Of a DNA stretch of 34,770 nt, positions 9,825 through 32,929 are shown in pieces (position 1 is the stretch's first letter; each line of letters starts with the position of its first letter). A program made the translations under genes and the position numbers. The notes beneath the pieces were generated by a model that was given only the letters and a program-made list of their open reading frames with translations, was not told the origin of the DNA and searched no databases. Source of the stretch: an uncultured Psychroflexus sp. (GTDB taxonomy: Bacteria > Bacteroidota > Bacteroidia > Flavobacteriales > Flavobacteriaceae); contig CAJXVZ010000033.1 in NCBI GenBank assembly GCA_913062845.1, forward strand, positions 1 through 34,770, given 5' to 3'.

Positions 9825-10155
9825 CAGACTATTTTTAGGAGACATTAATGCTTATTCTATAAAGAAAATTAAAACTAATAAAATGTTTTAATTTATCATC
9901 ATTTATATAACAATTTAAATACTCCGATTCCTAAAGGGAAAATGTTAGAAAGTGTTAAAATAAAAAATCACAATATTATTTTCAAAGAATACCGGCGCTT
10001 GTATTTGAGAACATTTGTCATTTAAGCAGATATATGCTCTAAAATTACTTAAAACTCATCATAGGGAAACGATATCCAAACATCATCATCTTTGCCTCTC
10101 ATTTAAAATAAATGTTTAATTTTTTGCTTATATAATTTTTTTTTGCTTTATTTGA

Positions 10156-10174
10156 AAGTGTAAATAATACACTT
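10156..10174. promoter_or_regulatory. Palindromic operator O1 of the arabinose regulon
   Basis: AAGTGTAAATAATACACTT is a perfect 6+6 inverted repeat with a 7-bp AT-only centre; counting the inner A/T pair gives seven paired bases per arm. The same AAGTGT-N7-ACACTT pattern occurs ahead of araB (27766). It lies 15 bp upstream of a -7 element and covers the -33 position, so a dimeric regulator bound here would either block RNA polymerase or replace the missing -33 contact. An AraR-type regulator of Bacteroidota is a candidate, but none is encoded in the window. Confidence 0.8.
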
Positions 10175-10189
10175 GTATATTTAACAATT

Positions 10190-10197
10190 TATATTTC
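10190..10197 (+). promoter_or_regulatory. -7 promoter element of the arabinan-degradation block
   Basis: TATATTTC matches seven of eight positions of TAnnTTTG and lies 36 nt before the ATG at 10233. No TTTG is found 19-21 bp upstream; operator O1 occupies that place. The araB promoter shows the same geometry. Confidence 0.65.
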
Positions 10198-10232
10198 AAA
10201 CAATTACACTAATTTTTTATCATTTGTGAATC

Positions 10233-11786
10233 ATGAATAAAGTAAAACCGATCAATTTATCACTGGTAGTTGTACTACTTACGATAACGTTTTCTTTGAA
10301 TGGTCAAACCACTTCAGTAGAAATAAAGTCAAGTGCTGATGCTCCGGTCATTAGCAAACACATTTATGGACATTTTGCAGAACACCTTGGCCGATGTATT
10401 TATGGCGGGCTATATGTTGGTGAGGACAGTAAAATTCCAAACAAAGACGGCGTTAGGCAAGATATTATTGATGCTTTGATCGAATTAAAAATCCCAAACC
10501 TTAGGTGGCCAGGTGGGTGCTTTGCAGATACTTACCACTGGAAAGATGGTGTAGGCCCTAAGGAAGACAGGCCTTCTATGGTTAATAAATGGTGGGGAAA
10601 TGTTGTTGAAGACAACAGCTTTGGAACACACGACTTTCTTAATCTCTGCGAAGTTCTTGATGCAGAGCCCTATTTAGCTGCAAATGTAGGAAGCAGTACG
10701 GTTCAAGAGTTTACAGAATACATTCAATACGTTACAAGAGAAGAAGGTGTTCCCATGTCAGATTACCGAATCGAAAATGGAAGAAAAGAACCCTGGAATG
10801 TAAAATTTTGGGGAGTTGGAAATGAAATGTGGGGTTGTGGCGGTCACATGAGACCCGAACACTATGCTGATATTTACAGACAATACGCCACTTTTATGAC
10901 CGATTGGTCTAACAGTGATGATTTTTACAGAATAGCATCGGGTGCCAATGTCGACGATTACAACTGGACTGAAGTTCTTATGCGTGAGATTCCTAAAAAC
11001 TTAATTGAAGGTGTAGCTCTTCACTCCTATTCTTTTGTAGAATGGAATGACAAAGGTTCCGCTAAGGATTTCACTGAAGAGCAATATTTTTCTACCATGA
11101 AAACGGCATTAAGAATGGATGAACTCATCAGAAATCATACGGCTATCATGGATAAATACGACCCTAACAAAAGAGTTGACTTGATAGTTGATGAATGGGG
11201 TGGATGGTATCAGGTAGAGGAAGGTACCAATCCTGGATTTTTGTACCAGCAGAATACAATGCGCGACGCCATGATTGCCGGAACTACACTTAATATTTTT
11301 AATAATCATTCTGATCGGGTTAAAATGGCCAATTTAGCACAAACAGTAAATGTTCTGCAGGCCGTTATTCTCACACAGGATGAAAAAATGTTGCTTACGC
11401 CTACTTACCACGTCATGAGGATGTATAATGTTCATCAGGATGCCAAACTATTGCCCGTAGAGTTTACATCACCATTGTATGTCCATAACGGTGAAGCTCT
11501 TCCTGCGCTTTCGGTATCGGCCTCGGAAGACAATTCTGGAAACAAACATTTCTCTTTAGTGAATATTGACGCAAAAAAAGAACACGAGATAGAATTAAAC
11601 GTAGATGGTTTAAAACTAAAAAATGCGGTAGCTCAAATCTTAACCTCTAAGCGTGTGCAAGACCATAATACTTTCGATAATCCCGAAAAAGTAAAGCCAA
11701 TCGAATTTAAAGATTTTAAACTCAAAAACGGAAAATTGACATTAACATTGCCTCCTTTTTCAGTGGTAGTAGTTGAAGCTAAATAA
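10233..11786 (+). CDS. GH51 alpha-L-arabinofuranosidase, secreted
   Basis: This 517-residue retaining glycosidase should remove terminal alpha-L-arabinofuranose from arabinan or arabinose-containing side chains. A signal peptide (residues 1-25, ending SLNGQ) sends it to the periplasm or outside. The GH51 (beta/alpha)8 domain shows HFAEHLGRCIYGGLYVGEDS near 47, NLRWPGGCFADTYHW near 89, the acid/base motif GVGNEMWG (Glu198) and the nucleophile motif VDEWGGW (Glu321). The C-terminal all-beta domain ends TLTLPPFSVVVVEAK. Length matches short GH51 enzymes without the N-terminal CBM-like domain, unlike the second GH51 at 25746. It is the first gene after operator O1 and is followed 17 bp later by a GH43 gene. 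Confidence 0.95.
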   Translation: MNKVKPINLSLVVVLLTITFSLNGQTTSVEIKSSADAPVISKHIYGHFAEHLGRCIYGGLYVGEDSKIPNKDGVRQDIIDALIELKIPNLRWPGGCFADTYHWKDGVGPKEDRPSMVNKWWGNVVEDNSFGTHDFLNLCEVLDAEPYLAANVGSSTVQEFTEYIQYVTREEGVPMSDYRIENGRKEPWNVKFWGVGNEMWGCGGHMRPEHYADIYRQYATFMTDWSNSDDFYRIASGANVDDYNWTEVLMREIPKNLIEGVALHSYSFVEWNDKGSAKDFTEEQYFSTMKTALRMDELIRNHTAIMDKYDPNKRVDLIVDEWGGWYQVEEGTNPGFLYQQNTMRDAMIAGTTLNIFNNHSDRVKMANLAQTVNVLQAVILTQDEKMLLTPTYHVMRMYNVHQDAKLLPVEFTSPLYVHNGEALPALSVSASEDNSGNKHFSLVNIDAKKEHEIELNVDGLKLKNAVAQILTSKRVQDHNTFDNPEKVKPIEFKDFKLKNGKLTLTLPPFSVVVVEAK

Positions 11787-11803
11787 AATTTTAAAACTTG
11801 AAG

Positions 11804-13411
11804 ATGATGAAAAAAAGATGGATTAAAACAATTATGATTTTATGTTTGTTAGCTGGGTTTTCAGCTTGCTCTGAGGATGATTCAGACGTTACAAACATAA
11901 CAGAAGAACCGGACCCGACAGATCCTACAGAACCAGGCGATACATTCCCTGGACCAACTTATGCGGATAACTACACCAATATTGCCGGATGGGCTAACAG
12001 AAGTCAATGGAATCTGGCAAATGTACATGACCCAACAGTCGTAAAACAAGGGGAGTATTTTTACATGTACCAAACCAATGCTTCCTATGGTAATGCACAC
12101 GAAGGAAATGGAAACTTCCACGCAAGGCGATCTAAAGATTTAGTCAATTGGGAATATTTAGGCTCTACAATGGACCAGGCGCCTGAATGGATTAAACAAA
12201 AACTTAATGAAAAACGTGCTGATGAAGGCAGACCGCCAATACAAAACCCAAATTATGGGTATTGGGCACCAGCTGTTGTTCAGGTTGGAAACGTATATAG
12301 AATGTACTACAGCATTGTCATCTTAGACCTGATTGAAGGTAATGACAATTGCGCATCCTGGAACGAAGAATCCTACATCGGCCTGATGGAATCTACGGAT
12401 TTGGCCTCCAATGTATGGGAAGACAAAGGCATGGTAATCACACAAATCCCTGATGGTATAGAGGACCTTTACCGAGACAGCTGTAACGATTGGAGTGCAT
12501 ATTATAAATTCAATGCCATAGATCCAAGTGTTATAGTAACACCTGAAGGTGAACACTGGATGATATACGGTTCATGGCACACAGGTATTGCAGCAGTTGA
12601 ACTCGACCCAAATACAGGAAAACCTTTTCAACTCAACACGGAAGAAGATTACGGGGTTCGTATTACAGCACGTGGTAACATCAATACCAACAGATGGCAA
12701 GGACTTGAAGCTCCTGAAATCGTTTATAATCCGGACACTGGATATTATTATCTGTTTTTAGCATACGACGAACTTTCTGTCGCTTACAATACACGTGTTG
12801 CACGATCAACAAATATTTTAGGCCCTTACGTAGGAATCGATGGTCAAAATGTAACAGAAGGTGCTGAAGCCTGGCCAATGCTTACACACCCTTACCAGTT
12901 TAATAACCACACTGGTTGGGTTGGAATTTCACATTGTACAATATTTGAAGATCCGGATACCGGAAAATGGTATTATTCCTCTCAGGGAAGATTACCTGAA
13001 AATGTACCTGGGATAAATGCTTCTAATGCAGTAATGATGGGTCATGTGAGAGAAGTAGAATGGACATCGGACGGTTGGCCTGTTGTCGCACCGGAACGAT
13101 ATGCCGGTGTGCCTGAAACAGAAATCACCGAAGAAGATATTGTAGGAATCTGGGAACAAATAACAATGGATTACCAATACCAAGTCATGCAGACTTCAGA
13201 AAATGTAGTATTCAATGCAAATGGAACACTTGGCGGAAGTATGGGTGGCACATGGTCTCTTGACCCATCAACCAATACGTTAACCATCAATGGTAACGAA
13301 TGTAAATTGTTAGATGCATGGGATTGGGAAGCGTCACCAAGAAAAGTGACCATTTCTTATTCAGGATTAACCACTGAAGGAAGACCAATTTGGGCCAAGA
13401 AAGTTCAATAA
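11804..13411 (+). CDS. GH43 endo-arabinanase-like surface lipoprotein with C-terminal lipocalin-like domain
   Basis: I prefer ATG 11804 over an in-frame TTG at 11798. The 535-residue protein begins with a lipoprotein signal ending LLAGFSAC (Cys22). The mature start SEDDSD closely resembles the acidic lipoprotein export signal that sends Bacteroidota lipoproteins to the cell surface. A Pro/Thr linker leads into a GH43 five-bladed propeller: VHDPTVVKQGEYFYMYQ (Asp76, general base), NAIDPSVIV (Asp240, pKa modulator) and QGLEAPEIVYN (Glu302, general acid). After about residue 440 a beta-rich domain (VGIWEQI, then GGTWSLDPSTNTLTING) matches the GH43 C-terminal domain of endo-acting enzymes. The likely reaction is inverting internal cleavage of alpha-1,5-arabinan at the cell surface. 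Exact specificity is inferred. Confidence 0.9.
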   Translation: MMKKRWIKTIMILCLLAGFSACSEDDSDVTNITEEPDPTDPTEPGDTFPGPTYADNYTNIAGWANRSQWNLANVHDPTVVKQGEYFYMYQTNASYGNAHEGNGNFHARRSKDLVNWEYLGSTMDQAPEWIKQKLNEKRADEGRPPIQNPNYGYWAPAVVQVGNVYRMYYSIVILDLIEGNDNCASWNEESYIGLMESTDLASNVWEDKGMVITQIPDGIEDLYRDSCNDWSAYYKFNAIDPSVIVTPEGEHWMIYGSWHTGIAAVELDPNTGKPFQLNTEEDYGVRITARGNINTNRWQGLEAPEIVYNPDTGYYYLFLAYDELSVAYNTRVARSTNILGPYVGIDGQNVTEGAEAWPMLTHPYQFNNHTGWVGISHCTIFEDPDTGKWYYSSQGRLPENVPGINASNAVMMGHVREVEWTSDGWPVVAPERYAGVPETEITEEDIVGIWEQITMDYQYQVMQTSENVVFNANGTLGGSMGGTWSLDPSTNTLTINGNECKLLDAWDWEASPRKVTISYSGLTTEGRPIWAKKVQ

Positions 13412-13434
13412 GTTATCTATTAAAACCTAAACAA

Positions 13435-14424
13435 ATGCAGAGATTATTCATGTTTTGTGTATTGCCGTTCTTTATTTCATGCCAGGACATGAATAATAGT
13501 GTGGATAAACCTGTTGAAAGTAAAGAGACAAAAGAGCTGTCTATAAACAACCCTGTCATAACAGATGTCTTTACAGCAGATCCGGCGGCTATTGTGCATA
13601 ACGATACTGTTTTTCTTTACACTGGTCACGATATTGCTCCGAACGATTTCAACTTTTATAAAATGGAAGACTGGCTCGTCTTTTCGTCCACCAATATGGT
13701 CGACTGGAAATCTTATCCGGTGCCACTTAAAGTCGATGACTTTAAATGGGCAAAAGCCGACGCCTGGGCTGCTGAGGTGATAGAAAAAGACGGTAAATTC
13801 TTCTGGTATGTCAGTGTGGAACACGACGATACCAAGCCCGGAAAAGCAATCGGTGTAGCAGTATCCGATAGCCCAACCGGACCTTTTGAAGATGCTTTAG
13901 GAAAAGCCCTCATTACAAACGACATGACAACAGCTACGAATATCCGCTGGGACGACATCGATCCATCTGTTTTTATAGATGACGATGGACAGGCGTACTT
14001 GTTCTGGGGAAATACGGTGTGTTACTATGCCAAGCTAAAAGACAACATGATCGAGCTGGATGGAGAGATCAAGACCATCGATTTACCAAATTTTACAGAA
14101 GCGCCGTGGATTCATAAAAAAGGAGACAATTACTACCTGTCTTACGCGTATCAGTTTCCGGAAAAAACAGCCTATGCCATGAGCAAATCGATCGAAGGTC
14201 CGTGGGAATACAAAGGTATTTTAAATGAAGTGGCAGGAAACTCCAACACCAACCATCAGGCCATCATCGAATACAAAGGTAAAGACTATTTTATCTACCA
14301 CACCGGAGGAATTCAGCCTAATGGCGGAAGTTTCAGACGCTCCGTCTGTATCGATGAATTAAATTACAACGAAGACGGAACACTTCAACGGGTCATAATG
14401 ACCTCAGAAGGGATTCAAAAATAA
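13435..14424 (+). CDS. GH43 arabinofuranosidase/xylosidase-type lipoprotein
   Basis: The start is placed at ATG 13435, where the lipoprotein signal MQRLFMFCVLPFFISC begins (lipid Cys16). An open frame reaching TTG 13390 would overlap the previous gene and spoil the signal. The 329-residue product is a single-domain GH43 protein with TADPAAIVHNDTVFLYTGHD (Asp49), DDIDPSVFIDDDG (Asp176) and NFTEAPWIHKKGDNYYLSYAY (Glu222). It resembles exo-acting alpha-L-arabinofuranosidase or beta-xylosidase branches of GH43 more than the endo-arabinanase branch of its neighbours. The residues after the cysteine (QDMNN) lack an acidic surface-export run, so a periplasmic membrane-anchored enzyme is likely. It lies 23 bp after one GH43 gene and 7 bp before another. 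Confidence 0.9.
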   Translation: MQRLFMFCVLPFFISCQDMNNSVDKPVESKETKELSINNPVITDVFTADPAAIVHNDTVFLYTGHDIAPNDFNFYKMEDWLVFSSTNMVDWKSYPVPLKVDDFKWAKADAWAAEVIEKDGKFFWYVSVEHDDTKPGKAIGVAVSDSPTGPFEDALGKALITNDMTTATNIRWDDIDPSVFIDDDGQAYLFWGNTVCYYAKLKDNMIELDGEIKTIDLPNFTEAPWIHKKGDNYYLSYAYQFPEKTAYAMSKSIEGPWEYKGILNEVAGNSNTNHQAIIEYKGKDYFIYHTGGIQPNGGSFRRSVCIDELNYNEDGTLQRVIMTSEGIQK

Positions 14425-14431
14425 TACTACC

Positions 14432-15418
14432 ATGAAAACAAAAATCACCACTTTTTTTTTCTCCTTACTATTCGTTTCAGCATTAGGAATTGCCCAAACC
14501 GATAAGCCCATCACACACGATCCGGTTGTTGCTAAACAGGGCGACACCTATTATTTGTTTTGCACTGGACCGGGTATTACCAGTTTTACCTCAAAAGATC
14601 TAAAGACCTGGACAAAAGCCGATCCCGTCTTCGAAGAAAGTCCAAAATGGGCAAAAGATGTGGCGCCGGGGTTCAATGGCCACATTTGGGCACCGGACAT
14701 TATTTACCGCAACGGGAAATACCATTTATACTATTCCATTTCTGCTTTTGGTAAAAATACTTCTGCTATTGGGCTGGTTACCAATTCAACTTTAAATCCT
14801 GAGGACGATAACTACAGATGGGAGGACCAGGGTCCGGTTATCCAATCGGTACCAAACCGGGACTTGTGGAATGCTATAGATCCTAATATTATTGTAGACG
14901 AAGAAGGGACACCATGGATGTCTTTCGGGTCATTCTGGACCGGACTCAAATTGGTAAAGCTTAACGAAGACATGGATGCACCAGCCGAGCCGCAGGAATG
15001 GTACCCTATTGCCAAAAGAGACCGTGGTGAAAATATTCCTGATGCCGATGCCGGAAGAGCTGCACTGGAAGGTCCTTTCATTTTTAAAAAAGGCGATTAT
15101 TATTACCAGTTCTTATCATGGGATTACTGCTGTAGAGGTGAAAACTCCACTTACAAACTGGTCGTTGGCCGTTCCAAAGATGTGAAAGGGCCTTATGTGG
15201 ATAAAGAAGGACAAAAACTGACAGAAGGCGGCGGAAGCCTTGTCATTGAAGGAAACGAAAACTGGTACGGTGTAGGCCATAACAGTGTGTTTACGTTCGA
15301 TGGAAAGGATTACACATTTATGCATGGCTATGATGCCAGCGACAGAGGTCTTCCAAAACTCATCGTTAAAGAGGTCAATTGGGAAAATGGCTGGCCTGTT
15401 GTTGAACCTATGGATTAA
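14432..15418 (+). CDS. GH43 arabinan endo-1,5-alpha-L-arabinosidase (GH43_5-like), copy A
   Basis: This 328-residue exported enzyme has a signal peptide ending SALGIAQ (residues 1-22). The five-bladed GH43 domain shows ITHDPVVAKQGDTYYLFCTG (Asp30), HIWAPDIIYRNGKYHLYYS, WNAIDPNIIVDEEGTPWMSFG (Asp150) and AALEGPFIFKKGDYYY (Glu213). FLSWDYCCRG is a hallmark of the arabinanase subfamily. It should hydrolyse alpha-1,5-L-arabinan or long arabino-oligosaccharides by inversion. The next gene is a clear paralogue with the same motif order, so the pair arose by tandem duplication. Confidence 0.92.
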   Translation: MKTKITTFFFSLLFVSALGIAQTDKPITHDPVVAKQGDTYYLFCTGPGITSFTSKDLKTWTKADPVFEESPKWAKDVAPGFNGHIWAPDIIYRNGKYHLYYSISAFGKNTSAIGLVTNSTLNPEDDNYRWEDQGPVIQSVPNRDLWNAIDPNIIVDEEGTPWMSFGSFWTGLKLVKLNEDMDAPAEPQEWYPIAKRDRGENIPDADAGRAALEGPFIFKKGDYYYQFLSWDYCCRGENSTYKLVVGRSKDVKGPYVDKEGQKLTEGGGSLVIEGNENWYGVGHNSVFTFDGKDYTFMHGYDASDRGLPKLIVKEVNWENGWPVVEPMD

Positions 15419-15459
15419 TCTTACTGTTTTATACTTGATTAAATGCATTCTAAAAACTA

Positions 15460-16464
15460 ATGAAAATTTTTAGCTTATACATACTGCTCTTTTGTGGAAT
15501 ATGCAGTTTGGCTCAATCCAACAGAAAACCGGACGATTCTAAAGGTTTTGTGGCTCATGATCCTGTTATGATCAAAGAAGGAGAGAACTTTTATGTGTTT
15601 ACCACAGGTGGAGGCATGGCTAAAAGCACCGATCTTGAAAACTGGGAACGTATAGATCCTGTACCAACAGAGTTGGACTGGGTGACAAAAGACATTATCC
15701 CGGACTATCGTGGGCGCGGTTACTGGGCGCCGGATATTCAATACCTAGATGGCACCTATTATTTGTATTATTCGCCTTCAGCCTTTGCAAAAAACACTTC
15801 AGCAATAGGTGTCATGACCAATAAAACCTTAGATCAGAACAGTCCTGATTATGAGTGGGTAGACCATGGTATGATTCTGCAATCCATCCCCGGCAGAGAC
15901 TTCTGGAACGCCATAGATGCAAATGTGTACTTTGATCGCAAATGGGATGGCGAGGTCACTGGCTGGCTGTCGTTTGGCTCATTTTGGGGTGGCTTAAAGC
16001 TTGTAAAGCTGGATTCCACCATGAAAGCTCTGGCAGAACCTCAGGAATGGTATACCATCGCCAAACAGGAAAGAACCTTTGGCATGCCGGACACAGACCC
16101 GGGTGATGGCACCATAGAAGCACCGTTTATTTACAAAAGGCATCAATATTATTACCTGTTCATCTCAACCGGTTATTGCTGCAGAGGATTAGACAGTACT
16201 TACAAAGTGTTGGTCGGGCGTTCTCGCGACATCAGAGGACCTTACTTCGACAAGGAAGGCAAAACCCTCTATGCCGGTGGCGGTACTTTTGTGGCTGGTG
16301 AAACCGAAAAATATGCAGGAATTGGGCATTGCTCCGTTTACGATTTTGATGGGCAGACCTATTTTGTCGCGCATGGCTACGACAAAGAAGACAACGGCCG
16401 ATCGAAACTGGTTGTGAAACCCATTGAATGGGACAGAGCTGAATGGCCAACTGTAAAATTTTAA
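15460..16464 (+). CDS. GH43 arabinan endo-1,5-alpha-L-arabinosidase (GH43_5-like), copy B
   Basis: This 334-residue paralogue of the preceding gene has a signal peptide ending CSLAQ (residues 1-19). Motifs are VAHDPVMIKEGENFYVFTTG (Asp34), YWAPDIQYLDGTYYLYYSPS, WNAIDANVYFD (Asp153) and GTIEAPFIYKRHQYYYLF (Glu220), plus STGYCCRG and TYKVLVGRSRDIRGPYFDKEG shared with copy A. All three catalytic acids are kept. It differs from copy A by an insertion (RKWDGEVTG) after the second acid and by Ala for Pro next to Asp153, close to the active site. This suggests divergence towards a different chain length or branch pattern. It lies 41 bp after copy A and 9 bp before the GH2 gene. Confidence 0.9.
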   Translation: MKIFSLYILLFCGICSLAQSNRKPDDSKGFVAHDPVMIKEGENFYVFTTGGGMAKSTDLENWERIDPVPTELDWVTKDIIPDYRGRGYWAPDIQYLDGTYYLYYSPSAFAKNTSAIGVMTNKTLDQNSPDYEWVDHGMILQSIPGRDFWNAIDANVYFDRKWDGEVTGWLSFGSFWGGLKLVKLDSTMKALAEPQEWYTIAKQERTFGMPDTDPGDGTIEAPFIYKRHQYYYLFISTGYCCRGLDSTYKVLVGRSRDIRGPYFDKEGKTLYAGGGTFVAGETEKYAGIGHCSVYDFDGQTYFVAHGYDKEDNGRSKLVVKPIEWDRAEWPTVKF

Positions 16465-16473
16465 GACAACTCA

Positions 16474-18327
16474 ATGAAAAATATCGACTTCCTCATAGCA
16501 TTCCTGTTTTACGTTCTTACTAGTGAAGCGCAGAATGAATTGCTAATGAACACCTTTGGAAGAAAAACCATTTCCCTAAACGGCACATGGCACTACATCA
16601 TCGATCCTTACGAAACCGGTTTTTATGACTACAGGTTTAAGGAACGGCCTGAAGGAGATCCGGGCGCCTATTGGAATAAACCCGTCATCAAAACCAACAA
16701 TGACTGGACCGAGCATAGCTTTAAAGAGCCCTACACCATTCAAGTACCCGGTGACTGGAACCATCAGGATCCGAAATTCTTATATTATGAAGGCACGGTC
16801 TGGTACCAGCGTACGTTCGACAAACCACAACTCAATGAAAACGAAGAAGTTCATCTCTACTTTGGGGCCGTCAATTATAAAGCCGATGTCTACCTGAACG
16901 GGAAAAAACTAGTCGTACACAAAGGTGGCTTTACACCGTTTAATTTTATAATTCCAAAGGGTTTACTTCAGGAAAAAGACAACAATTTAGTTGTACATGT
17001 CAACAACAACAGGCATCCGGATGATGTACCGACGGTGAATACCGACTGGTGGAATTACGGGGGCATCACCAGAGATGTAAAATTAGTCATTACTTCTAAA
17101 CAGCACATCCGGCAATACCATTTGCAATTGGATCCGGAGCAGGACATTGCAAAAGCCAAACGAAAAGGGAGATTTAAACTGAAAGGCTGGGTAAAATTCA
17201 ATACTGCAATTTCCGACCAGGAGCTCACTATTGAAATACCAGAAGTAAAATTTAAAGAAAGTGTTTCTGTTGAAGGAAATTCTCTTCAACTGGATTTCGA
17301 GGTTAAGAACATCGAATTATGGGATACCAAAAACCCGAAGTTATACGATGTCAATTTTAGCTTGAACAAAAACACAATTACGGACAAAATAGGCTTTAGA
17401 ACCGTAAAGGTTGAAGGCACCGACATTTTGCTTAATGGAGAAAAAACATTTCTTCGCGGCATATGCCTTCACGAAGAAATTGCCAAAGAGGAACGCCGAG
17501 CTTACAGCAAAACAGATGCAGAATACCTGTTAGGTCAAGTACAGGAATTGCATGCCAACATGGTCAGGCTGGCCCATTATCCGCATAACGAATACATGCC
17601 CAGAGTTGCTGATTCCTTGGGCATTATGTTATGGACAGAAATACCGGTGTACTGGACCATAAATTTCGATAAAAAAGAAGTCTTGGACAATGCCAAACAA
17701 CAGTTGAACGAAATGGTAAACAGAGACCGGAACCGGGCATCAATTGTGCTTTGGGGAGTTGGCAATGAAACGCCGGTAAGCGATAAACGAACGGAATTTA
17801 TGACAGCATTGGTCAAAGAAGCCAAAGCCTTAGACCAAACGCGTTTAGTCGCCGCTGCACTCGAAGTAGGGTACAATAAAGGAAAAAACCATGTAGACGA
17901 TCCGCTTGGAGAATTCACAGATATTGTCGCCTTAAATGAGTATTTAGGCTGGTATGTGTCAACGCCTGATGGATGCCGAACTGCAGAATGGAGTGTAAAA
18001 TACGATAAGCCCTTTTTTATCAGCGAAACCGGCGCAGGTGCGAAAGGCGGATTTCATGCCGACAAAACCAAGCGCTTCAGCGAAGAGTACCAACAATGGC
18101 TGTACGAGGAGCAAATCAACATGTTCAAAACAAAATTCCCTGAAAGTTTTAGCGGCCTGACCCCGTGGATATTATTCGATTTTAAATCGCCTAAACGAAA
18201 AAATCCAGTCTATCAGGAAAACTGGAACCGAAAAGGACTCATAGATGAAAAAGGTAATAAAAAATTAGCCTTTTATACCCTTCAGGCGTATTACAAAGAA
18301 CTTGAAGAATTAGAAAATAACAGGTAA
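16474..18327 (+). CDS. GH2 family exo-glycosidase, secreted
   Basis: This 617-residue retaining glycosidase has a signal peptide ending LTSEAQ (1-20). It has the GH2 layout: an N-terminal sugar-binding jelly roll (SLNGTWHYIIDPYE, then VPGDWNHQDPKFLYYEGTVWYQR), an Ig-like middle domain (about 210-310) and a (beta/alpha)8 domain. The catalytic acid/base motif is LWGVGNETPVS (Glu432) and the nucleophile motif is FFISETGAGA (Glu518). At about 600 residues it is the short beta-glucuronidase-like GH2 type, not the 1,000-residue LacZ type. In an arabinose locus it may remove galactose or arabinopyranose caps. The substrate cannot be read from sequence. Confidence 0.9.
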   Translation: MKNIDFLIAFLFYVLTSEAQNELLMNTFGRKTISLNGTWHYIIDPYETGFYDYRFKERPEGDPGAYWNKPVIKTNNDWTEHSFKEPYTIQVPGDWNHQDPKFLYYEGTVWYQRTFDKPQLNENEEVHLYFGAVNYKADVYLNGKKLVVHKGGFTPFNFIIPKGLLQEKDNNLVVHVNNNRHPDDVPTVNTDWWNYGGITRDVKLVITSKQHIRQYHLQLDPEQDIAKAKRKGRFKLKGWVKFNTAISDQELTIEIPEVKFKESVSVEGNSLQLDFEVKNIELWDTKNPKLYDVNFSLNKNTITDKIGFRTVKVEGTDILLNGEKTFLRGICLHEEIAKEERRAYSKTDAEYLLGQVQELHANMVRLAHYPHNEYMPRVADSLGIMLWTEIPVYWTINFDKKEVLDNAKQQLNEMVNRDRNRASIVLWGVGNETPVSDKRTEFMTALVKEAKALDQTRLVAAALEVGYNKGKNHVDDPLGEFTDIVALNEYLGWYVSTPDGCRTAEWSVKYDKPFFISETGAGAKGGFHADKTKRFSEEYQQWLYEEQINMFKTKFPESFSGLTPWILFDFKSPKRKNPVYQENWNRKGLIDEKGNKKLAFYTLQAYYKELEELENNR

Positions 18328-18330
18328 TTC

Positions 18331-19683: not shown

Positions 19684-21650
19684 AAAACTATAATATACAT
19701 ATCATTCTGCTTTTGCTTACTATCAGCCTGCTGTCGTGTAATTCTTCGCACAAAGATCAGGTAAAAACTGAAAGTTCTACAAAAGGCTATACCATTCAAC
19801 CGGTTGATATTCGGGAAGTGAAGATTACCGACGAGTTTTGGTTACCAATTATCAAACGGGTTCAGGAAAAAACAATAGACTACGCCATTGCCAAATGCGA
19901 AGAAGAGGGACGTTTTGAAAATTTCCTTATCGCCGGTGGAGAAATGAAAGGAGACGTGAGAGGTGCTATGCCATTTGACGATACCGATGTTTACAAAATC
20001 ATCGAAGGCGCCTCAAACTCTTTGATAAGCGCACCAAATGAAAAACTTGAAAAGTTGTTAGACTCCTTGATCAGTATCATCAAAGTTGGTCAGGAGCCCG
20101 ATGGCTATTTAACTACCTGGCGAACTATTGACCCCGCAAAACCGCCGGCAACTTGGGTAAAAACCCCTAAAGGCGAACGCTGGGACGGATTGTTTATGAG
20201 TCATGAACTCTACAATGCAGGCCATTTGTACGAAGCGGCAGCTGTACATTACAAGGCAACAGGAAAACGTAATTTTCTGGACATTGCTCTAAAAAATGCT
20301 GATTTAATGGTAGATACTTTTGGCGAGGGTGAAAATAAAATTGAGGCTGTACCAGGCCATCAGATCATCGAAACTGGTCTCATTAAACTGTACCAGATTA
20401 CAGGTAAAGAGGAGTACCTCAAACTGTCTAAATACTTTTTAGACAACCGGGGTAATCCGGGACACCATGAATTATTTGGTCCTTATTCTCAGGATCATGT
20501 GCCTGTGGTAAAACAGGATGAAGTGGTTGGACATGCCGTAAGGGCAATGTATATGTATGCTGCGATGACGGATATAGCGGCGATACAAAATGATACCTTA
20601 TATGAAAATGCTGTCAATACCCTTTGGGATAATATGGTGAACAAGAAAATGTACATAACCGGTGGAATCGGTGCTAAGCACGAGGGTGAGCAATTTGGGG
20701 CTAATTACGAACTCCCCAACCTGACTGCTTACAATGAGACCTGTGCATCCATTGGCGATGTGTACTGGAACCACCGATTGCACAAGCTTTATGGGAAGGT
20801 CGAATATTTTGATGTGATAGAGCGTACGCTGTACAACGGACTTATTTCCGGTCTTTCTCTGGATGGGACGAATTTCTTTTATCCTAATGCCTTAGAGTCT
20901 GATGGTGTTTATAAGTTCAACCGTGGCGCGTGTACCAGACAATCCTGGTTCGATTGTTCCTGCTGCCCAACAAACGTAATTCGTTTTATTCCATCTGTGC
21001 CGGGTTTAATTTATTCGAAATCTGATGATACTGTCTTTGTGAACTTGTATGCTTCAAACGAAGCGGAAATAGACCTGAAAGGTGAAAAGGTGAGCATCTC
21101 TCAACAAACCAACTATCCCTGGGATGGCAAAGTCAATTTCAATATCACCTCAAATTCAGAAATAACCTTAAAGTTTAGAGTCCCCGGATGGAGCAGAAAT
21201 GAAGTATTACCTGGAGACTTGTATGCTTATACAGACAAATTTTCACCTCAGCCACTTTTAAACATTAATGGTAAAGAAGTTTCATCACCAATTGAAAACG
21301 GTTATTTTGTGGTCACCAGACAATGGAATGCAGACGATACCCTTCAAATTGAATTCCCGATGGAAGTCAGAACCATTAAATCTAATGAAAATGTTGAAGA
21401 AAATATTGGTAAACTGGCTCTGGAATATGGCCCTTTAGTCTATGCAATTGAAGAAATTGATAATCCTGATATTGATGCCATTAAAATTTCGGAAAAGGAT
21501 GAGTTTACTGTAAAAAAAGAGCCTATCCTTAAAGGTGTGAATACCATTTCAAATGAAAAATTAAAGGCTATTCCCTATTATGCATGGTCTAACCGAGGAG
21601 TTGGTAAAATGAAAGTATGGATAAACAAAACTAATACCGATGGAAACTAG
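19680..21650 (+). CDS. GH127 beta-L-arabinofuranosidase, lipoprotein
   Basis: This 656-residue protein (GH127, formerly DUF1680) is exported by a lipoprotein signal ending SLLSC (Cys20). The (alpha/alpha)6 barrel shows REVKITDEFWLPIIKRVQE near 45, GRFENFLIAGGE near 77 and GHLYEAAAVHY near 181. The zinc/cysteine catalytic set is TAYNETCASIGDVYWN (Glu353, Cys355) and WFDCSCCPTNVIRF (Cys426, Cys428, Cys429). In characterised GH127 enzymes a cysteine held on zinc is the nucleophile, and the two Cys plus Glu-x-Cys seen here fit that. It should release beta-L-arabinofuranose, a linkage of hydroxyproline-rich glycoproteins and some pectins, so the target is not only plain alpha-arabinan. Its stop overlaps the next start by 11 bp. 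Confidence 0.93.
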   Translation: MKNYNIHIILLLLTISLLSCNSSHKDQVKTESSTKGYTIQPVDIREVKITDEFWLPIIKRVQEKTIDYAIAKCEEEGRFENFLIAGGEMKGDVRGAMPFDDTDVYKIIEGASNSLISAPNEKLEKLLDSLISIIKVGQEPDGYLTTWRTIDPAKPPATWVKTPKGERWDGLFMSHELYNAGHLYEAAAVHYKATGKRNFLDIALKNADLMVDTFGEGENKIEAVPGHQIIETGLIKLYQITGKEEYLKLSKYFLDNRGNPGHHELFGPYSQDHVPVVKQDEVVGHAVRAMYMYAAMTDIAAIQNDTLYENAVNTLWDNMVNKKMYITGGIGAKHEGEQFGANYELPNLTAYNETCASIGDVYWNHRLHKLYGKVEYFDVIERTLYNGLISGLSLDGTNFFYPNALESDGVYKFNRGACTRQSWFDCSCCPTNVIRFIPSVPGLIYSKSDDTVFVNLYASNEAEIDLKGEKVSISQQTNYPWDGKVNFNITSNSEITLKFRVPGWSRNEVLPGDLYAYTDKFSPQPLLNINGKEVSSPIENGYFVVTRQWNADDTLQIEFPMEVRTIKSNENVEENIGKLALEYGPLVYAIEEIDNPDIDAIKISEKDEFTVKKEPILKGVNTISNEKLKAIPYYAWSNRGVGKMKVWINKTNTDGN

Positions 21651-23343
21651 AAAAACCTATAAGATCCGTTTGCTCTTTGTCATCTGCATTTTCTTTCAGA
21701 TCTCTGGTTTTGCTCAAACTGAGCCTGTAGAAATTCATGTAGATGCCGATAAAACCATTGGTGAAATGAATCCGATGTGGGCGTGGTGGGGTTACGATGA
21801 GCCCAACTACACTTACATGAAAGATGGGAAAAAATTATTGACCGACATTTCAAATTTAAGCCCTGTTCCGGTTTTTGTTCGTGCCCACAGTTTATTGGTG
21901 ACCGGTGAAGGTACGCATGGTCTTAAATGGGGTTCAACAAATGCCTATACTGAGGATGAAGATGGAAATCCTATTTACGACTGGACGATCGTAGATAAGA
22001 TATTTGACACCTACATCGAACGCGGGATGAAACCCTTTGCCCAAATTGGGTTTATGCCCAAAGCTTTATCTTCCAAACCAGAACCTTACCGGCATTACTG
22101 GAAACCCGGTGCTGCTTATGAAGATATTTATACAGGTTGGGCTTATCCGCCTAAGGATTATGAAAAATGGGCAGAGTTGGTGTTCCAATGGGTTAAACAT
22201 TGTGTAGAACGCTACGGAAAAGAAGAAGTGGAAAGCTGGTACTGGGAGGTATGGAACGAGCCTAACATCGGCTATTGGCAAGGCACTACCGAAGAATACA
22301 TCAAACTCTACGATTACAGCGCCGATGCTGTTAAAAGGGCATTGCCTACGGCAAAAATCGGTGGTCCGGAAACCACAGGACCTCGCTGGGATGTGGCTGA
22401 AGAATTTTTAAGAACCTTCCTGGAACATGTAAAAAACGGTAAAAATTACGCAACTGGAGAAACAGGTTCTCCGCTGGATTTTATAACTTTTCATGCCAAA
22501 GGCAACCCAAGGGTTATCGATGGCATGGTTCAAATGGATATGGGTGCTCAACTTAAAGACATCAGCAAAGGTTTTGAAATTGTAGCCTCGTATCCGGAGT
22601 TCAAAGACCTTCCCATCATCATTGGAGAGTCTGATCCGGAAGGCTGTGCGGCCTGCTCAGAAGCGGATTACCCGCATAACGCCTACAGAAATGGAACCAT
22701 GTATGCCAGCTATACCGCAGCGTCGTTTTCAAGAAAGTACGCATTGGCAGATCATTATGGCGTCAACTTACTAGGTGCGGTTACATGGGGGTTTGAATTC
22801 GAAAATCAGCCCTGGTTTGCAGGCTTTAGAGACATGGCTACCAATGGCGTGAATAAACCTGTACTCAACGTGTTTCGAATGTTCGGGTTAATGTCCGGCG
22901 ATCGACTGGAGGTTAAGCAGGACAACTTAGCTTACGATTTTAAAAAAGTACGGGACCAAAGTGTAAGAGGCAAGCAGCCTGATGTTAATGCCTTGGCTTC
23001 AAAATCCGAGAATTCAATCGCTGTGATGGTATGGAACTACCACGACAATGATGACCTGAATGTTAAGGATGCCATGGTTAAGGTTTTGATTGAACATATA
23101 GAGTCCGATAAAGTGCTGGTGCATCACTACAGGGTAGACCAGGAGCATAGTAACGCATACACCTTATGGAAAGAAATGGGCAGGCCTCAAAATCCTGATG
23201 AAACACAAATAAGCCAATTAGAAAAGGCAGGTGATCTAAAACTGTATTCATCTCCGAAGTGGCAAAGCATTGAAAAAAATACATTTAATAAAACCATCAG
23301 TTTACCCAGACAGGGTGTTTCACTCATTAAGCTAACCTGGTAA
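21640..23343 (+). CDS. GH39-like glycosidase, secreted
   Basis: This 567-residue enzyme has a signal peptide ending ISGFAQ (about 1-26). The (beta/alpha)8 domain carries MNPMWAWWGYDEPNYTYM near 43, YWEVWNEPNIGYW (acid/base Glu207) and LPIIIGESDPEGCAACS (nucleophile Glu330), matching the clan GH-A pattern of GH39. A C-terminal beta-domain ends ISLPRQGVSLIKLTW. GH39 contains beta-xylosidases, iduronidases and arabinofuranosidases that release disaccharides from arabinogalactan side chains. In this context one of the arabinose-linked activities is more likely than xylosidase (inference). It starts inside the end of the GH127 gene, so the two are translated together. Confidence 0.82.
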   Translation: METRKTYKIRLLFVICIFFQISGFAQTEPVEIHVDADKTIGEMNPMWAWWGYDEPNYTYMKDGKKLLTDISNLSPVPVFVRAHSLLVTGEGTHGLKWGSTNAYTEDEDGNPIYDWTIVDKIFDTYIERGMKPFAQIGFMPKALSSKPEPYRHYWKPGAAYEDIYTGWAYPPKDYEKWAELVFQWVKHCVERYGKEEVESWYWEVWNEPNIGYWQGTTEEYIKLYDYSADAVKRALPTAKIGGPETTGPRWDVAEEFLRTFLEHVKNGKNYATGETGSPLDFITFHAKGNPRVIDGMVQMDMGAQLKDISKGFEIVASYPEFKDLPIIIGESDPEGCAACSEADYPHNAYRNGTMYASYTAASFSRKYALADHYGVNLLGAVTWGFEFENQPWFAGFRDMATNGVNKPVLNVFRMFGLMSGDRLEVKQDNLAYDFKKVRDQSVRGKQPDVNALASKSENSIAVMVWNYHDNDDLNVKDAMVKVLIEHIESDKVLVHHYRVDQEHSNAYTLWKEMGRPQNPDETQISQLEKAGDLKLYSSPKWQSIEKNTFNKTISLPRQGVSLIKLTW

Positions 23344-23390
23344 AACATTAAAACACCAACCGCTTCAATTGAAGTTGAATATTTAAATAC

Positions 23391-24731
23391 ATGAGCACAA
23401 AACAACAAAAATTAAGCGTCCTCGAGAAAATAGGCTATGGCTCCGGAGATGCCGCAGTAAACGTCGTCATATCGTCGATGTTTCTCATCATCACCTTCTT
23501 TTACACCGATGTATTTGGCATCAAACCTGCAGACATGGCCATTTTATTTCTGCTTGTCAGATTCATCGACGCCATCACTGATCCCTTAATGGGTACGATC
23601 ACAGATCGGATCACCACAAAATGGGGACGCTACAGGCATTACTTTCTATACCTCTCTGTTCCTTTTGGAATAGCCGTTTTCCTGACGTTCACCACACCCG
23701 GATTTGACTATACCGGTAAACTGATTTATGCTTACATCACTTATATTTTCGTCACCCTGATGTTTACCTCGGTGACCATCCCTTATATTTCATTGATTGG
23801 AGTTTTAACCAGCGATCCTAAGGAGAAGTTATCGGCTAACGGGTACCGTTTGTTTTTTGCAAAAATAGCTGCGTTCTTAGTATCAATTGTAGTTCCAATT
23901 CTTGCTGAAGAATTCGGAAAAGACGATCTGCAACGCGGTTATCAGCTGGCCATGGGCGTAATGGCTTTGCTTGGAACTGCTCTGCTTCTATTTTGTTTTT
24001 TTACAACTAAAGAACGTGTCGAGCACGAAATAGACAAAAAGCCTCTGCTGGAACAATTTAAATTACTTATCAAAAATGGGCAATGGACCTTATTGTTTGG
24101 GGTTTGTTTTACAGGAACAGTTGGCTATGTCATCAGAAATTCTGTCGCCATCTTTTATGCGAAATATTACCTGGGCGGCGATGCCAGCATTCAATCCTCT
24201 TTCCTGGCTACAGGAGTGATTGGCGCCATTTTAGCCATGCCGGCATCAACATATATCACCAAACGCTATTGTAAGGTCAAATTGTTTAAATACACACAGC
24301 TGATCGTTGGAGGCATTAGTGCGTTGATGTTCTTCCTGGTCGATCCCGGAGATTTGTACATGGCCTATGTGCTTTATTTTTTGTTATCTTTTATTGTGGA
24401 TCTTCATGCACCAGTTTTCTGGTCTGCCATTGCCGAAGCTGTCGATTATGGTCATGCCAAATCCGGTAAACGGGTATCCGGACTTTCTTTCGGCGGCATC
24501 TCGTTTGCTCAAAAATTCGGAATGGGCATCGCCGGAGCAGTTGTAGGTTACCTTTTGGATTTCTTTGGATATATTCCGGATGAAGTCCAAACAGAAAGCG
24601 CACTGGTTGGTATCGCCCTAATGTTAACCATCATTCCGGGAGTCTTTCACATGATCATGGGAGGTCTGATGTTCAGGTATAAAATTACCGATACGTATTA
24701 CGAAAAAATCAAACTAAAACTCAACATATAA
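23391..24731 (+). CDS. GPH-family sugar:cation symporter (MFS)
   Basis: This 446-residue inner-membrane carrier has about 12 membrane helices. It belongs to the glycoside-pentoside-hexuronide family, with GYGSGDAAVNVVISSMFLI at the start of helix 1, FIDAITDPLMGTITDRITTKWGRYRHYF (the conserved loop 2-3 motif) near residue 58, and VDYGHAKSGKRVSGL in the second half. Members carry xylosides, arabinosides and related glycosides by proton or sodium symport. It is followed after only 1 bp by a GH43 without signal peptide, so its likely cargo is arabino-oligosaccharides cleaved in the cytoplasm. Confidence 0.9.
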   Translation: MSTKQQKLSVLEKIGYGSGDAAVNVVISSMFLIITFFYTDVFGIKPADMAILFLLVRFIDAITDPLMGTITDRITTKWGRYRHYFLYLSVPFGIAVFLTFTTPGFDYTGKLIYAYITYIFVTLMFTSVTIPYISLIGVLTSDPKEKLSANGYRLFFAKIAAFLVSIVVPILAEEFGKDDLQRGYQLAMGVMALLGTALLLFCFFTTKERVEHEIDKKPLLEQFKLLIKNGQWTLLFGVCFTGTVGYVIRNSVAIFYAKYYLGGDASIQSSFLATGVIGAILAMPASTYITKRYCKVKLFKYTQLIVGGISALMFFLVDPGDLYMAYVLYFLLSFIVDLHAPVFWSAIAEAVDYGHAKSGKRVSGLSFGGISFAQKFGMGIAGAVVGYLLDFFGYIPDEVQTESALVGIALMLTIIPGVFHMIMGGLMFRYKITDTYYEKIKLKLNI

Positions 24732-24732
24732 T

Positions 24733-25734
24733 ATGGATTTTGATAGAACAAATGCCCCTTTTGTCGAGCAACGTGCAGACCCATTCGTATATAAACATAC
24801 GGATGGCTATTACTACTTTACCGGGTCAGTGCCGACCTACGACAGAATAGAATTACGGCGTGCAAAATCTATAAAAGACTTAAAAAATGCTGAAACGCAC
24901 GACGTGTGGTTCAAGCACGAAAGTGGTCCAATGAGCAGACACATTTGGGCGCCGGAAATTCATTATCTCGATGGCAAATGGTATGTTTATTTTGCAGCAA
25001 GTGAAGAGGAAGACATCTGGAAATTAAGACCCTATGTCATCGAATGCCAGGGTCAAAATCCGTTGACGGATGAATGGAAAGAACTGGGACAAATGCAGTC
25101 CGCTGAGGAGGATGATAAATCCTTTATAGATTTTTCCTTAGACGGAACTGTTTTCGACCATAAAGGAAAACGCTACTTCTGTTGGGCTGAAAAAACCGGT
25201 GGACAATTTGCAGCATCCAACTTATACCTGGCTGAAATGGCATCGCCTGTAAAACTAAAGACCGTTCAATTTATGCTCACCACACCGGATTACGACTGGG
25301 AACGCATCGATTTCTGGGTGAATGAAGGCCCGGCAGTCATTAAGAACGAAGGTAAAATTTACATTACCTTTTCAGCCAGTGCCACAGGCGCCTGCTATTG
25401 TATGGGACTGATGGAAGCCGATGAAGATGCGGACTTACTGGATAGAAATTCCTGGACTAAATCCAGATACCCCGTACTTGAAACAGATGAAAATAAGAAA
25501 ATATTTGGACCGGGACATAACAGTTTTACAGTAGCTCAGAATGGGACGCCACTTTGTATTTATCATGCCAGAAGTTATAAGGACGCTGTAGGTGATCCTT
25601 CAGTTGTTCCGGAAAGTGATAAACGACCTTTAGAAGAAATTAAAGACGATCCGCTTTATGACCCTAACCGACATGCCAGACTGATGGAAGTTACGTTTGA
25701 TAAAAAAGGTAGACCAGTTTTTGAATTTTATTAA
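24733..25734 (+). CDS. Cytoplasmic GH43 exo-alpha-1,5-L-arabinofuranosidase (GH43_26-like)
   Basis: This 333-residue protein has no signal peptide; it begins MDFDRTNAPFVEQRADPF, so it should stay in the cytoplasm, unlike the other four GH43 proteins. Catalytic positions are Asp16 in QRADPFVYKHTDGYYYFTGS, Asp137 in IDFSLDGTVFDHKGKRYF and Glu198 in WVNEGPAVIKNEGKIYITFS. The motifs and the C-terminus (LMEVTFDKKGRPVFEFY) resemble the exo-1,5-alpha-L-arabinofuranosidase branch GH43_26. It starts 1 bp after the GPH symporter gene, which fits a coupled import-and-cleave step for short arabino-oligosaccharides. Confidence 0.88.
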   Translation: MDFDRTNAPFVEQRADPFVYKHTDGYYYFTGSVPTYDRIELRRAKSIKDLKNAETHDVWFKHESGPMSRHIWAPEIHYLDGKWYVYFAASEEEDIWKLRPYVIECQGQNPLTDEWKELGQMQSAEEDDKSFIDFSLDGTVFDHKGKRYFCWAEKTGGQFAASNLYLAEMASPVKLKTVQFMLTTPDYDWERIDFWVNEGPAVIKNEGKIYITFSASATGACYCMGLMEADEDADLLDRNSWTKSRYPVLETDENKKIFGPGHNSFTVAQNGTPLCIYHARSYKDAVGDPSVVPESDKRPLEEIKDDPLYDPNRHARLMEVTFDKKGRPVFEFY

Positions 25735-25745
25735 TACTACAACAC

Positions 25746-27767
25746 ATGACTAGTACAATTAAATATTTCTCTTTGTTAACGCTTCTATTGGCGCTGACTT
25801 TACAATCTTGCAAAAATAAAGGCCAGACCGAAGAAAAAAAGGAAACAGAATCAATTGATGTTTTGAACCTAGGCCTGGATACCAGCGACACAGGCATTAA
25901 GGTGCAACCCACCATGTACGGTATTTTCTTTGAAGACATCAATTTTGCAGCTGATGGTGGTTTGTATGCAGAATTGATTAAAAACCGTTCCTTTGAATTT
26001 CCGGATGCAAAAATGGGCTGGAGACAGCCAAACAGCCGAAGACCATCACTAAATTTAAATTCAGGATTTGCTAAAATCACCAATTATGCTAATCCAAAAG
26101 GCGGGAATAAAAAGTATAGCCATACCGTAATTCATAATGATGAAAATTACGAGTTATATAATGAAGGCTTCCGCGGTATTGGTCTGCACGAAGGCAAGAA
26201 ATATGACCTTTCTGTCATGATGGCGAATAGCAAAGGGATTGAAAATGTCAACTTTGCTTTGGTAGATACGACAGGAATTGTCCTTGCCGAAACTGCATTT
26301 CAACCTGCTTCAGGCGACTGGCAAACCTACGAAGCTGTTTTAGAACCAAATCGTACTGAAGCCAAAGCCATGTTGAAGATCACCTTTGAAGGCACTGGAA
26401 GTGTAGATATGGATATGATTTCTTTATTTCCACAAGATACCTGGAAAGGTAGAAAAAAGGGACTTCGAAAAGATTTAGTACAACTTTTAGACGACCTAGA
26501 TCCGGGCTTTCTACGTTTTCCGGGTGGATGTATTGTTGAAGGACGCAGCCTTGAACAACGCTATCAGTGGCAAAAAACAGTTGGTAAACCCATCGGACGT
26601 GAATTATTGATCAACCGATGGAACAACCTGTTCGCCGATCGGGCAGCTCCGGATTACTACCAAAGTTTTGGCTTAGGCTTTTACGAATATTTTCAATTGT
26701 CTGAGGATTTGGGTGCAGAACCTATCCCGATTTTAGGCTGTGGGATGGCTTGCCAGTTCAACACCGGAGAGTTAGTTCCGCTTGACAAACTAGATCCTTA
26801 CATCGAGGAAGCCTTGAATTTGATAGAATTTGCCAACGGAGACACCTCAACTTACTGGGGAAAACTCAGGGCAGACATGGGTCATCCGGAACCTTTTAAC
26901 ATGAAATATCTGGGCATTGGCAACGAACAATGGGGTCCGGAATATTTTGCACGCTATGAGATCTTTGCTGAGACTATAAGTGAAAAACATCCTGAGATCA
27001 TTTTAGTTTCTACGCCCGGACCATTCCCTGATGGCGATATGTTCGAATATGGTTGGGAACAAATGAAAAAATTAGACGTTGCTTTAGCAGACGAGCACTA
27101 TTACAGACCACCAGAATGGTTTTTGGAACATGCAGATCGTTACGACAGTTATGACAGAAACGGGCCAAAAGTTTTTGCAGGCGAATATGCGGCGCATCCC
27201 AAGGATGTTGAAAATGGTCCGTTAGAAAACAACTGGCAAGCCACATTGGCCGAAGCCGCCTTTATGACCGGACTGGAACGAAATGCAGATGTTGTTCACC
27301 TCACAGCTTATGCACCTTTAATGGCTCATGCTGAGGCCTGGCAGTGGGCGCCGAACTTAATCTGGTTTAACAATCTGGAAGCCTACGAAACCCCAAATTA
27401 CAAGGTTCAAAAAATATTTAGTAACAATCCAGGTACAGATGTTATTGCGATAACTGAAAACGCTAAACCCTTAACAGGACAACATGGCATTTATGCCTCT
27501 GCTGTAAAAGACATTGATAAAAATGAAATCATTATAAAGATAGTCAATGTGAATAATACCGAAATAGAGGTTACCATTAATGGCAAAGGCATGAAGAACA
27601 CTTCTGCGGAACTACTCACCTTAAGGCACGATGAGATGTCAGCAACAAATTCTTTTGAACAGCCAGATAATATCTCATTGATAAATAATAGTGTAGAAGT
27701 AAAAGATTCAAAAATAAAGCTGAAACTCAAAAGCCATTCAGTGAATGTGTTAAAGGTGAAATTATAA
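25746..27767 (+). CDS. GH51 alpha-L-arabinofuranosidase with N-terminal carbohydrate-binding-like domain, lipoprotein
   Basis: This 673-residue enzyme has a lipoprotein signal ending LTLQSC (Cys22). The long GH51 form is seen: QPTMYGIFFEDINFAADGG near 54, a CBM-like beta insertion (about 110-230, FRGIGLHEGKKYDLSVMM), FLRFPGGCIVEGRSLEQRYQW near 255, acid/base GIGNEQWGPEY (Glu394), ALADEHYYRPPEWFL near 446 and nucleophile VFAGEYAAHP (Glu480). A beta-sandwich ends the protein (SHSVNVLKVKL). It removes alpha-L-arabinofuranosyl units by retention. It differs in architecture from the GH51 at 10233, so the two probably trim different linkages. It is the last gene before operator O2; its stop codon overlaps that palindrome by 2 bp. 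Confidence 0.94.
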   Translation: MTSTIKYFSLLTLLLALTLQSCKNKGQTEEKKETESIDVLNLGLDTSDTGIKVQPTMYGIFFEDINFAADGGLYAELIKNRSFEFPDAKMGWRQPNSRRPSLNLNSGFAKITNYANPKGGNKKYSHTVIHNDENYELYNEGFRGIGLHEGKKYDLSVMMANSKGIENVNFALVDTTGIVLAETAFQPASGDWQTYEAVLEPNRTEAKAMLKITFEGTGSVDMDMISLFPQDTWKGRKKGLRKDLVQLLDDLDPGFLRFPGGCIVEGRSLEQRYQWQKTVGKPIGRELLINRWNNLFADRAAPDYYQSFGLGFYEYFQLSEDLGAEPIPILGCGMACQFNTGELVPLDKLDPYIEEALNLIEFANGDTSTYWGKLRADMGHPEPFNMKYLGIGNEQWGPEYFARYEIFAETISEKHPEIILVSTPGPFPDGDMFEYGWEQMKKLDVALADEHYYRPPEWFLEHADRYDSYDRNGPKVFAGEYAAHPKDVENGPLENNWQATLAEAAFMTGLERNADVVHLTAYAPLMAHAEAWQWAPNLIWFNNLEAYETPNYKVQKIFSNNPGTDVIAITENAKPLTGQHGIYASAVKDIDKNEIIIKIVNVNNTEIEVTINGKGMKNTSAELLTLRHDEMSATNSFEQPDNISLINNSVEVKDSKIKLKLKSHSVNVLKVKL

Positions 27768-27784
27768 GTGTAAAATTAACACTT
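27766..27784. promoter_or_regulatory. Palindromic operator O2 ahead of araB
   Basis: AAGTGTAAAATTAACACTT has the same AAGTGT-N7-ACACTT form as O1 at 10156 and overlaps the TAA of the preceding GH51 gene by 2 bp. It lies 15 bp before TATATTTG, the same distance as at O1. Confidence 0.82.
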
Positions 27785-27799
27785 ATTAAAAAAATAGTT

Positions 27800-27807
27800 T
27801 ATATTTG
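27800..27807 (+). promoter_or_regulatory. -7 promoter element of the araBDA block
   Basis: TATATTTG is a full match to TAnnTTTG, 22 nt before the ATG at 27830. No -33 TTTG is present at the normal distance; operator O2 sits there instead. This allows the araBDA block to be transcribed apart from the upstream glycosidase genes. Confidence 0.72.
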
Positions 27808-30206: not shown

Positions 30207-30219
30207 ATTTAGAACGATT

Positions 30220-31716: not shown

Positions 31717-31728
31717 TAATTCCAAACC

Positions 31729-32910: not shown

Positions 32911-32929
32911 TAAGACATAAACCAAACCT

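Follow-up and report, generated by a model that had tools for sequence, protein, structure and literature searches.

Arabinose Genes and Palindromes of the Contig

A contig of an uncultured Psychroflexus sp. of the family Flavobacteriaceae (CAJXVZ010000033.1, assembly GCA_913062845.1) was analyzed over its whole length of 34,770 nucleotides, hereafter the window. Its forward strand carries arabinan and arabinoside genes followed by an arabinose catabolic operon, and each group is preceded by a perfect copy of the palindrome AAGTGT-N7-ACACTT. These palindromes are very probably operators of the regulator AraR, which would block RNA polymerase until L-arabinose binds. The features are listed below.

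10123..10126, + strand: possible -33 element TTTG, 20 bp 5' of TTTATTTG (element search)
10147..10154, + strand: likely -7 element TTTATTTG, 5 of 6 fixed positions, 1 base 5' of operator 1 (layout in GH51, susC and tkt relatives)
10156..10174, + strand: predicted AraR operator 1, perfect palindrome 5' of the GH51/GH43 operon (motif scan, genome count, Markov statistics)
10190..10197, + strand: -7 element TATATTTC of the original prediction, 5 of 6 positions, 15 bp 3' of operator 1 (second promoter or chance)
10233..27767, + strand: arabinan/arabinoside genes, namely GH51, four GH43, GH2, beta-lactamase family, GH127, GH39, major facilitator superfamily transporter, fifth GH43 and GH51 (Pfam)
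27766..27784, + strand: predicted AraR operator 2, perfect palindrome that shares bases with the stop codon of the GH51 gene before it (motif scan)
27800..27807, + strand: araB promoter, -7 element TATATTTG, 6 of 6 positions, 15 bp 3' of operator 2 (layout kept at araB in relatives)
27830..34549, + strand: araB-araD-araA-epimerase-symporter genes (Pfam and NCBIfam)
27830..29521, + strand: araB (Pfam, NCBIfam)
29505..30206, + strand: araD (Pfam, NCBIfam, PDB match)
30166..31716, + strand: araA open reading frame (Pfam, NCBIfam)
31729..32910, + strand: aldose epimerase (Pfam, NCBIfam)
32930..34549, + strand: SSF symporter (Pfam, NCBIfam)
34632..34650, + strand: one-mismatch site AAGTGTGTTATTTACATTT, 3' of the symporter gene (motif scan); the contig ends at 34770

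The aldose epimerase and the SSF symporter could be named araM and araP by analogy with Bacteroides. The gene at 29505-30206 was also considered as a regulator gene, and this was rejected in favor of araD on the Pfam, NCBIfam and PDB matches.

Both palindromes are present where the original prediction placed them, and they precede arabinose catabolic and arabinan genes, in agreement with the arabinose regulon that it proposed. AAGTGT is the sole arm occurring twice among the 12 perfect 6-7-6 inverted repeats of the window. Under Markov models of order 1 to 3, 0.0018-0.0031 perfect copies are expected there, and the probability of at least two is 1.6 × 10−6 to 4.9 × 10−6. A search of the whole genome (3.37 Mb in 155 contigs, the window being contig 33) revealed only three perfect copies; the reversed control gave one, and 0.17-0.30 are expected. 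The third, C9:21760-21778, stands before the transketolase-transaldolase genes (tkt-tal) near araR on another contig, C9. When compared with known AraR sites, the motif proved to be the core of the BT0365 gel-shift oligonucleotide, AAGTGT-AAAAAAG-ACACTT, which is bound in vitro by AraR of Bacteroides thetaiotaomicron (BtAraR, BT0354) (PMC4666351).

Looser matches were not enriched, either at up to three mismatches in the window (27 sites against 20.5 expected, a count reached by 8 of 100 shuffles) or at up to one mismatch in the genome (12 sites against 13 for the control), and one-mismatch sites are therefore usable only with context. Two of them lie between araR and susC of the divergent susCD genes on C9, and two in the window, at 12526 within a GH43 gene and at 34632. 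The site at 12526 was treated as chance, as it is inside a coding gene and its mismatch class equals the control. Window positions 34694-34768 are common, on the opposite strand, to the contig starts C11:1-75 and C27:1-54. This repeat boundary is just 3' of the 34632 site, and therefore a gene possibly served by that site may have been cut off. An AAGTGT at 34759-34764 lies in the shared stretch and was not counted.

The AraR Regulator and Its Conserved Residues

The genome encodes one protein with the NrtR winged-helix domain (NrtR_WHD), at C9:18320-19012, beside divergent susCD and convergent tal-tkt. It is AraR-like, and the candidate regulator named in the original prediction, an AraR of the NrtR-like type, is thereby found. 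PF00293, PF21906 and PF19368, which represent the Nudix and NrtR/AraR winged-helix domains including AraR_C, all score above the Pfam cut-off. The closest relative with a solved structure is BtAraR (5bs6, e-value 6 × 10−69), with 97 identical residues among 208 aligned (47%). In a tree built without any named XylR, the protein falls within a group of 32 rows that contains BtAraR (support 100/99), with 11 rows outside.

The roles of individual residues have been described for BtAraR (PMC4666351). The arabinose-binding residues R34, R86 and H131 and the pocket residues Y5, F36, G47, G48, F49 and F129, by which membership is judged, are kept in the C9 protein and in 80/80 near relatives. The same is true of D178-K179-R180-N181, in which K179, R180 and N181 read GTGT. 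One relative, G143, carries two AraR copies, at C1:365942 and C1:2864280, each 71% identical to C9 AraR.

Distribution of the Sites in Relatives

The 80 named araR loci (L016-L095, 974,618 bases) contain 34 perfect sites, with none for the control; when one mismatch is allowed, there are 148 sites and 2 controls, and 75 of the 80 loci have at least one such site. In Flavobacteriaceae relatives, the sites stand 5' of araB, GH51/susC, araR and tkt.

AraA matches were found in 38 of 199 genomes of the family, 29 of them at full length and 9 weak. All 29 genomes with full-length AraA also encode an AraR homolog of at least 52% identity (24 at 60% or above, 5 at 52-56%), and 22 of them hold perfect sites (52 sites, 7 controls). 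Perfect sites are significantly associated with these 29 genomes as compared with the other 170 (Fisher p = 2 × 10−9). In 20 of the 29, araB has a site no more than 150 bp away (15 perfect, 5 one-mismatch); in 8, a site with up to one mismatch is further 5' in the same-strand gene run, and in the last one an adjoining stretch (L191) carries it before the GH51 gene. Gene names in relatives rely on matches to 22 reference proteins taken from this genome, and any other gene lying between a site and araB would therefore escape notice.

Several further sites were recognized. A perfect operator is located before a GH95-GH127 gene pair in one relative (L158, 13564-13582) and directly before a GH97 gene in another (L167, 15423-15441). 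The two one-mismatch sites on C9 (C9:18170 and 18236; L005, 6171-6189 and 6237-6255) have counterparts, and pairs 63-66 bp apart, mostly 5' of araR, are seen in L005, L018, L019, L021, L173, L181 and L184-L187, while the distance is 99 bp in a number of Flavobacterium loci. Do these pairs serve looping, or one operator for each divergent promoter?

Two Promoter Layouts

The -7 element is placed at -12 to -5 in the available portions of PMC6847099 and PMC9723704. Its consensus TAnnTTTG was scored at six fixed positions around the sites, and matches of at least 5 were counted. Layouts with the element 14-16 bp 3' of the operator are designated as class A, and those with the element ending 0-2 bp 5' of the operator as class B. 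It follows that the operator occupies -46 to -28 in class A with a distance of 15 bp, and -3 to +16 in class B. The scan covered 140 stretches (L016-L095, L156-L213, L005 and the window, with L001-L004, L006-L015 and L096-L155 set aside), and counts are non-redundant at a 75% identity cut. As the stretches were chosen for araR, araA or, in part, a perfect site, the counts describe layout, not prevalence.

Class A was found at 23/31 araB sites (21 with all six positions), 4/16 tkt sites, 2/26 susC sites and 1/28 GH51 sites, the last being the window itself. Class B was found at 22/28 GH51, 22/26 susC, 11/16 tkt and 6/31 araB sites. Neither layout was present at 7/31 araB and 6/28 GH51 sites. 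The background for a match of at least 5/6 is 4-5% in the downstream slot and 6-11% in the upstream slot.

Class B elements are separated from the operator by 1 base at 11/16 tkt, 20/28 GH51 and 19/26 susC sites. The last base of these elements is always G at tkt, and more often A (14 and 11, respectively) than G at GH51 and susC. TTTG occurs 19-21 bp before them in 9/11 cases at tkt, 16/19 at susC and 6/20 at GH51, in total 31/50 against a background of 4%; it was observed at none of the 23 non-redundant class A araB promoters. Class B is accordingly well marked at tkt and susC but less so at GH51, and the conserved flank there might instead belong to the operator. Beside the -7-like element, the operator arm reads AAATGT in place of AAGTGT at 20/28 GH51 and 18/26 susC sites, and the first arm is AAGTGT in 27/31 araB sites. 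Repression may be modulated by such a weaker arm adjoining the promoter.

Promoters at the Window Operators

The original prediction described two modules of identical geometry, in which the palindrome replaces the -33 TTTG. The 15 bp spacing to a -7 element is indeed present in both, with TATATTTC at 10190 and TATATTTG at 27800. Operator 2 is plain class A, a layout kept at araB in relatives, and it would cover about -46 to -28 of the araB promoter, in the place of the -33 element. For the first module, identical geometry is doubtful, since operator 1 also stands directly 3' of the competing element TTTATTTG with a possible -33 TTTG of its own (TTTG-N20-TTTATTTG-A-operator). Because the GH51 relatives are class B, TTTATTTG is taken as the likelier promoter of the first operon, with operator 1 at -3 to +16, and TATATTTC may mark a second promoter or have arisen by chance. 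The resemblance of the two modules is for the same reason probably in part accidental.

The tkt site of this genome is class B with a 6/6 element, and it is the only match to the strict class B pattern in the genome, from which operator 1 differs by one base in the -7 element. The susC site on C9 has 4/6 upstream and 5/6 at 15 bp downstream. A CRP-like Bacteroides site (core of the consensus in PMC3878776) was tried and rejected: with up to three mismatches, it matches the window 4 times against 4.35 expected, never 5' of either operator and once within the start of araB.

Proposed Mechanism and Alternatives

Homology and operator placement suggest a mechanism for the window promoters, in which binding, the direction of control and the start sites are predicted. 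AraR would be a dimeric Nudix-fold/winged-helix repressor that occupies its operators without arabinose and blocks RNA polymerase, at araB by covering the place of the -33 element and at the first operon most likely by lying over the start site. L-arabinose would release AraR from DNA, as 0.5 mM L-arabinose abolishes the complex of BtAraR with the BT0356 promoter (PMC4666351). The arabinan hydrolases, the araBDA-epimerase-symporter operon, the araR/susCD region and transketolase-transaldolase would then be induced together.

The alternative of activation, left open beside repression by the original prediction, is disfavored. AraR or another factor could substitute for -33 recognition at the araB operator, and the fixed spacing of 14-16 bp and the lack of TTTG in 23/23 class A araB promoters fit this role, although only about 0.6 TTTG would be expected by chance. 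The absence needs no special factor, since the -33 motif of Flavobacterium johnsoniae is generally weak according to the available text of PMC6847099. At most susC, GH51 and tkt sites, however, the same operator is directly 3' of a -7-like element, where such a role is impossible, and activation was rejected as the principal reading for this reason. BtAraR moreover leaves DNA with arabinose (PMC4666351) and is a repressor in vivo; in the araR mutant, araM messenger RNA (mRNA) on glucose equals that of the arabinose-grown wild type, about 30-fold up, as reported in the accessible part of PMC5061871, where araM is also described as requiring the CRP-like BT4338. Both operator positions and these genetic data, to the extent given there, argue for repression relieved by arabinose, and an activator at -33 is very unlikely. 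Control by a different regulator, such as an XylR-like NrtR paralog or an unrelated dimer, is more improbable still. A second sugar-regulating NrtR branch, XylR, exists in Bacteroidota (PMC4666351), and the palindrome is present in some genomes without araA, but the single NrtR_WHD protein here groups with BtAraR in the tree without named XylR, and one-mismatch copies of the motif lie 5' of its gene.

A less remote, though still unlikely, alternative is that both window modules are class A and that TATATTTC drives the first operon, with a start near 10202. This element scores 5/6 at exactly 15 bp, tkt takes either layout, and the upstream element at GH51 is often imperfect in its last base (A in 14/20) and in the -33 place. 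Nevertheless, a 5/6 match in a slot of three positions has the background given above, no GH51 site except that of the window has an element 14-16 bp downstream, and the upstream element is present at the majority of GH51 and susC sites and, with its TTTG, in the window.

Several observations weigh against repression by AraR. In the part of PMC5061871 at hand, araR loss in B. thetaiotaomicron did not alter the steady-state mRNA of arabinan genes, either on glucose or on arabinose, and the first operon may therefore not be tightly controlled. No NCBIfam model reaches its cut-off with C9 AraR, the best being the ADP-ribose-responsive NrtR with 135 bits against 400. V92, a pocket residue at the dimer edge, is replaced by T in C9 AraR and in 80/80 near relatives, and three of six BtAraR base contacts are changed in C9 AraR (K184N, K204T, R205K). 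These three are identical across AraR orthologs according to PMC4666351 and characterize the Bacteroides/Prevotella subgroup; with N, T and K instead, C9 AraR is assigned to the AraR branch of the NrtR family and not to that subgroup. Across the class, some distant homologs lack K179 or H131, and a site with up to one mismatch was found at only 6 of 30 homolog loci, taken with flanks of about 1.5 kb and counting the window's own locus. Such a site is absent from 5 of the 80 near araR loci. Perfect sites occur in 31 of 170 genomes without full-length AraA (43 sites, 19 controls), and thus the motif is not confined to genomes with araA. The only sampled genome of the same genus, G174, has neither araA nor a close AraR and offers no more than a distant Nudix match; the arabinose regulon thus seems to be accessory.

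A further proposal, tentative and somewhat less probable than not, is that AraR acts from one of two fixed positions depending on the role of the gene: it would gate promoters without a -33 element at araB, and lie over the start site of -33/-7 promoters at susC, most tkt and, less clearly, GH51. The araB promoter may then depend on a separate activator. If this is true, one arabinose signal would elicit a different response from scavenging and pentose-phosphate genes than from core catabolism.

Relation to Known Systems

The system itself is already known, and the additions are modest: the tkt-tal target and the two conserved operator positions. The BtAraR regulon (PMC4666351, PMC5061871) shares an NrtR-family Nudix/winged helix-turn-helix regulator with arabinose pocket residues, an operator with identical arms and spacing, and an arabinose catabolic operon together with GH51/GH43 and SusCD genes. 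It differs in the regulator sequence (47% identity, three DNA contacts) and in the gene arrangement. Here, araR is beside susCD and tal-tkt outside the ara operon, tkt-tal has a site, and one operator precedes araB, whereas a tandem pair precedes araM in B. thetaiotaomicron. BtXylR (BT0791) is also an NrtR-family protein of Bacteroidota, but its published description places it on a branch of its own, with 33% identity to BtAraR (PMC4666351). AraR of Bacillus subtilis shares the name and represses arabinose genes without L-arabinose, while it combines GntR-type DNA-binding and LacI-like sensor domains, as summarized in the part of PMC4666351 consulted for it.

The main text of PMC4666351 does not contain transketolase, transaldolase or tkt, and that of PMC3878776 contains neither transketolase nor tkt. 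Among the open-access papers listed in searches on AraR, no title or abstract start dealt with this regulator in Flavobacteriaceae, and flavobacteria are not mentioned in the available portion of the review PMC10766802. The present results extend a regulatory system of gut Bacteroides to Flavobacteriaceae, predict that the pentose-phosphate genes tkt-tal can join the AraR regulon, and suggest, for a phylum whose promoter code is unusual, a simple rule by which one operator may work from two promoter positions.

Next to the arabinan operon, on the opposite strand, the window encodes a reprolysin-like peptidase (7176-9845, - strand) and another protein (4521-5702, - strand), both with a Por secretion tail (Pfam).

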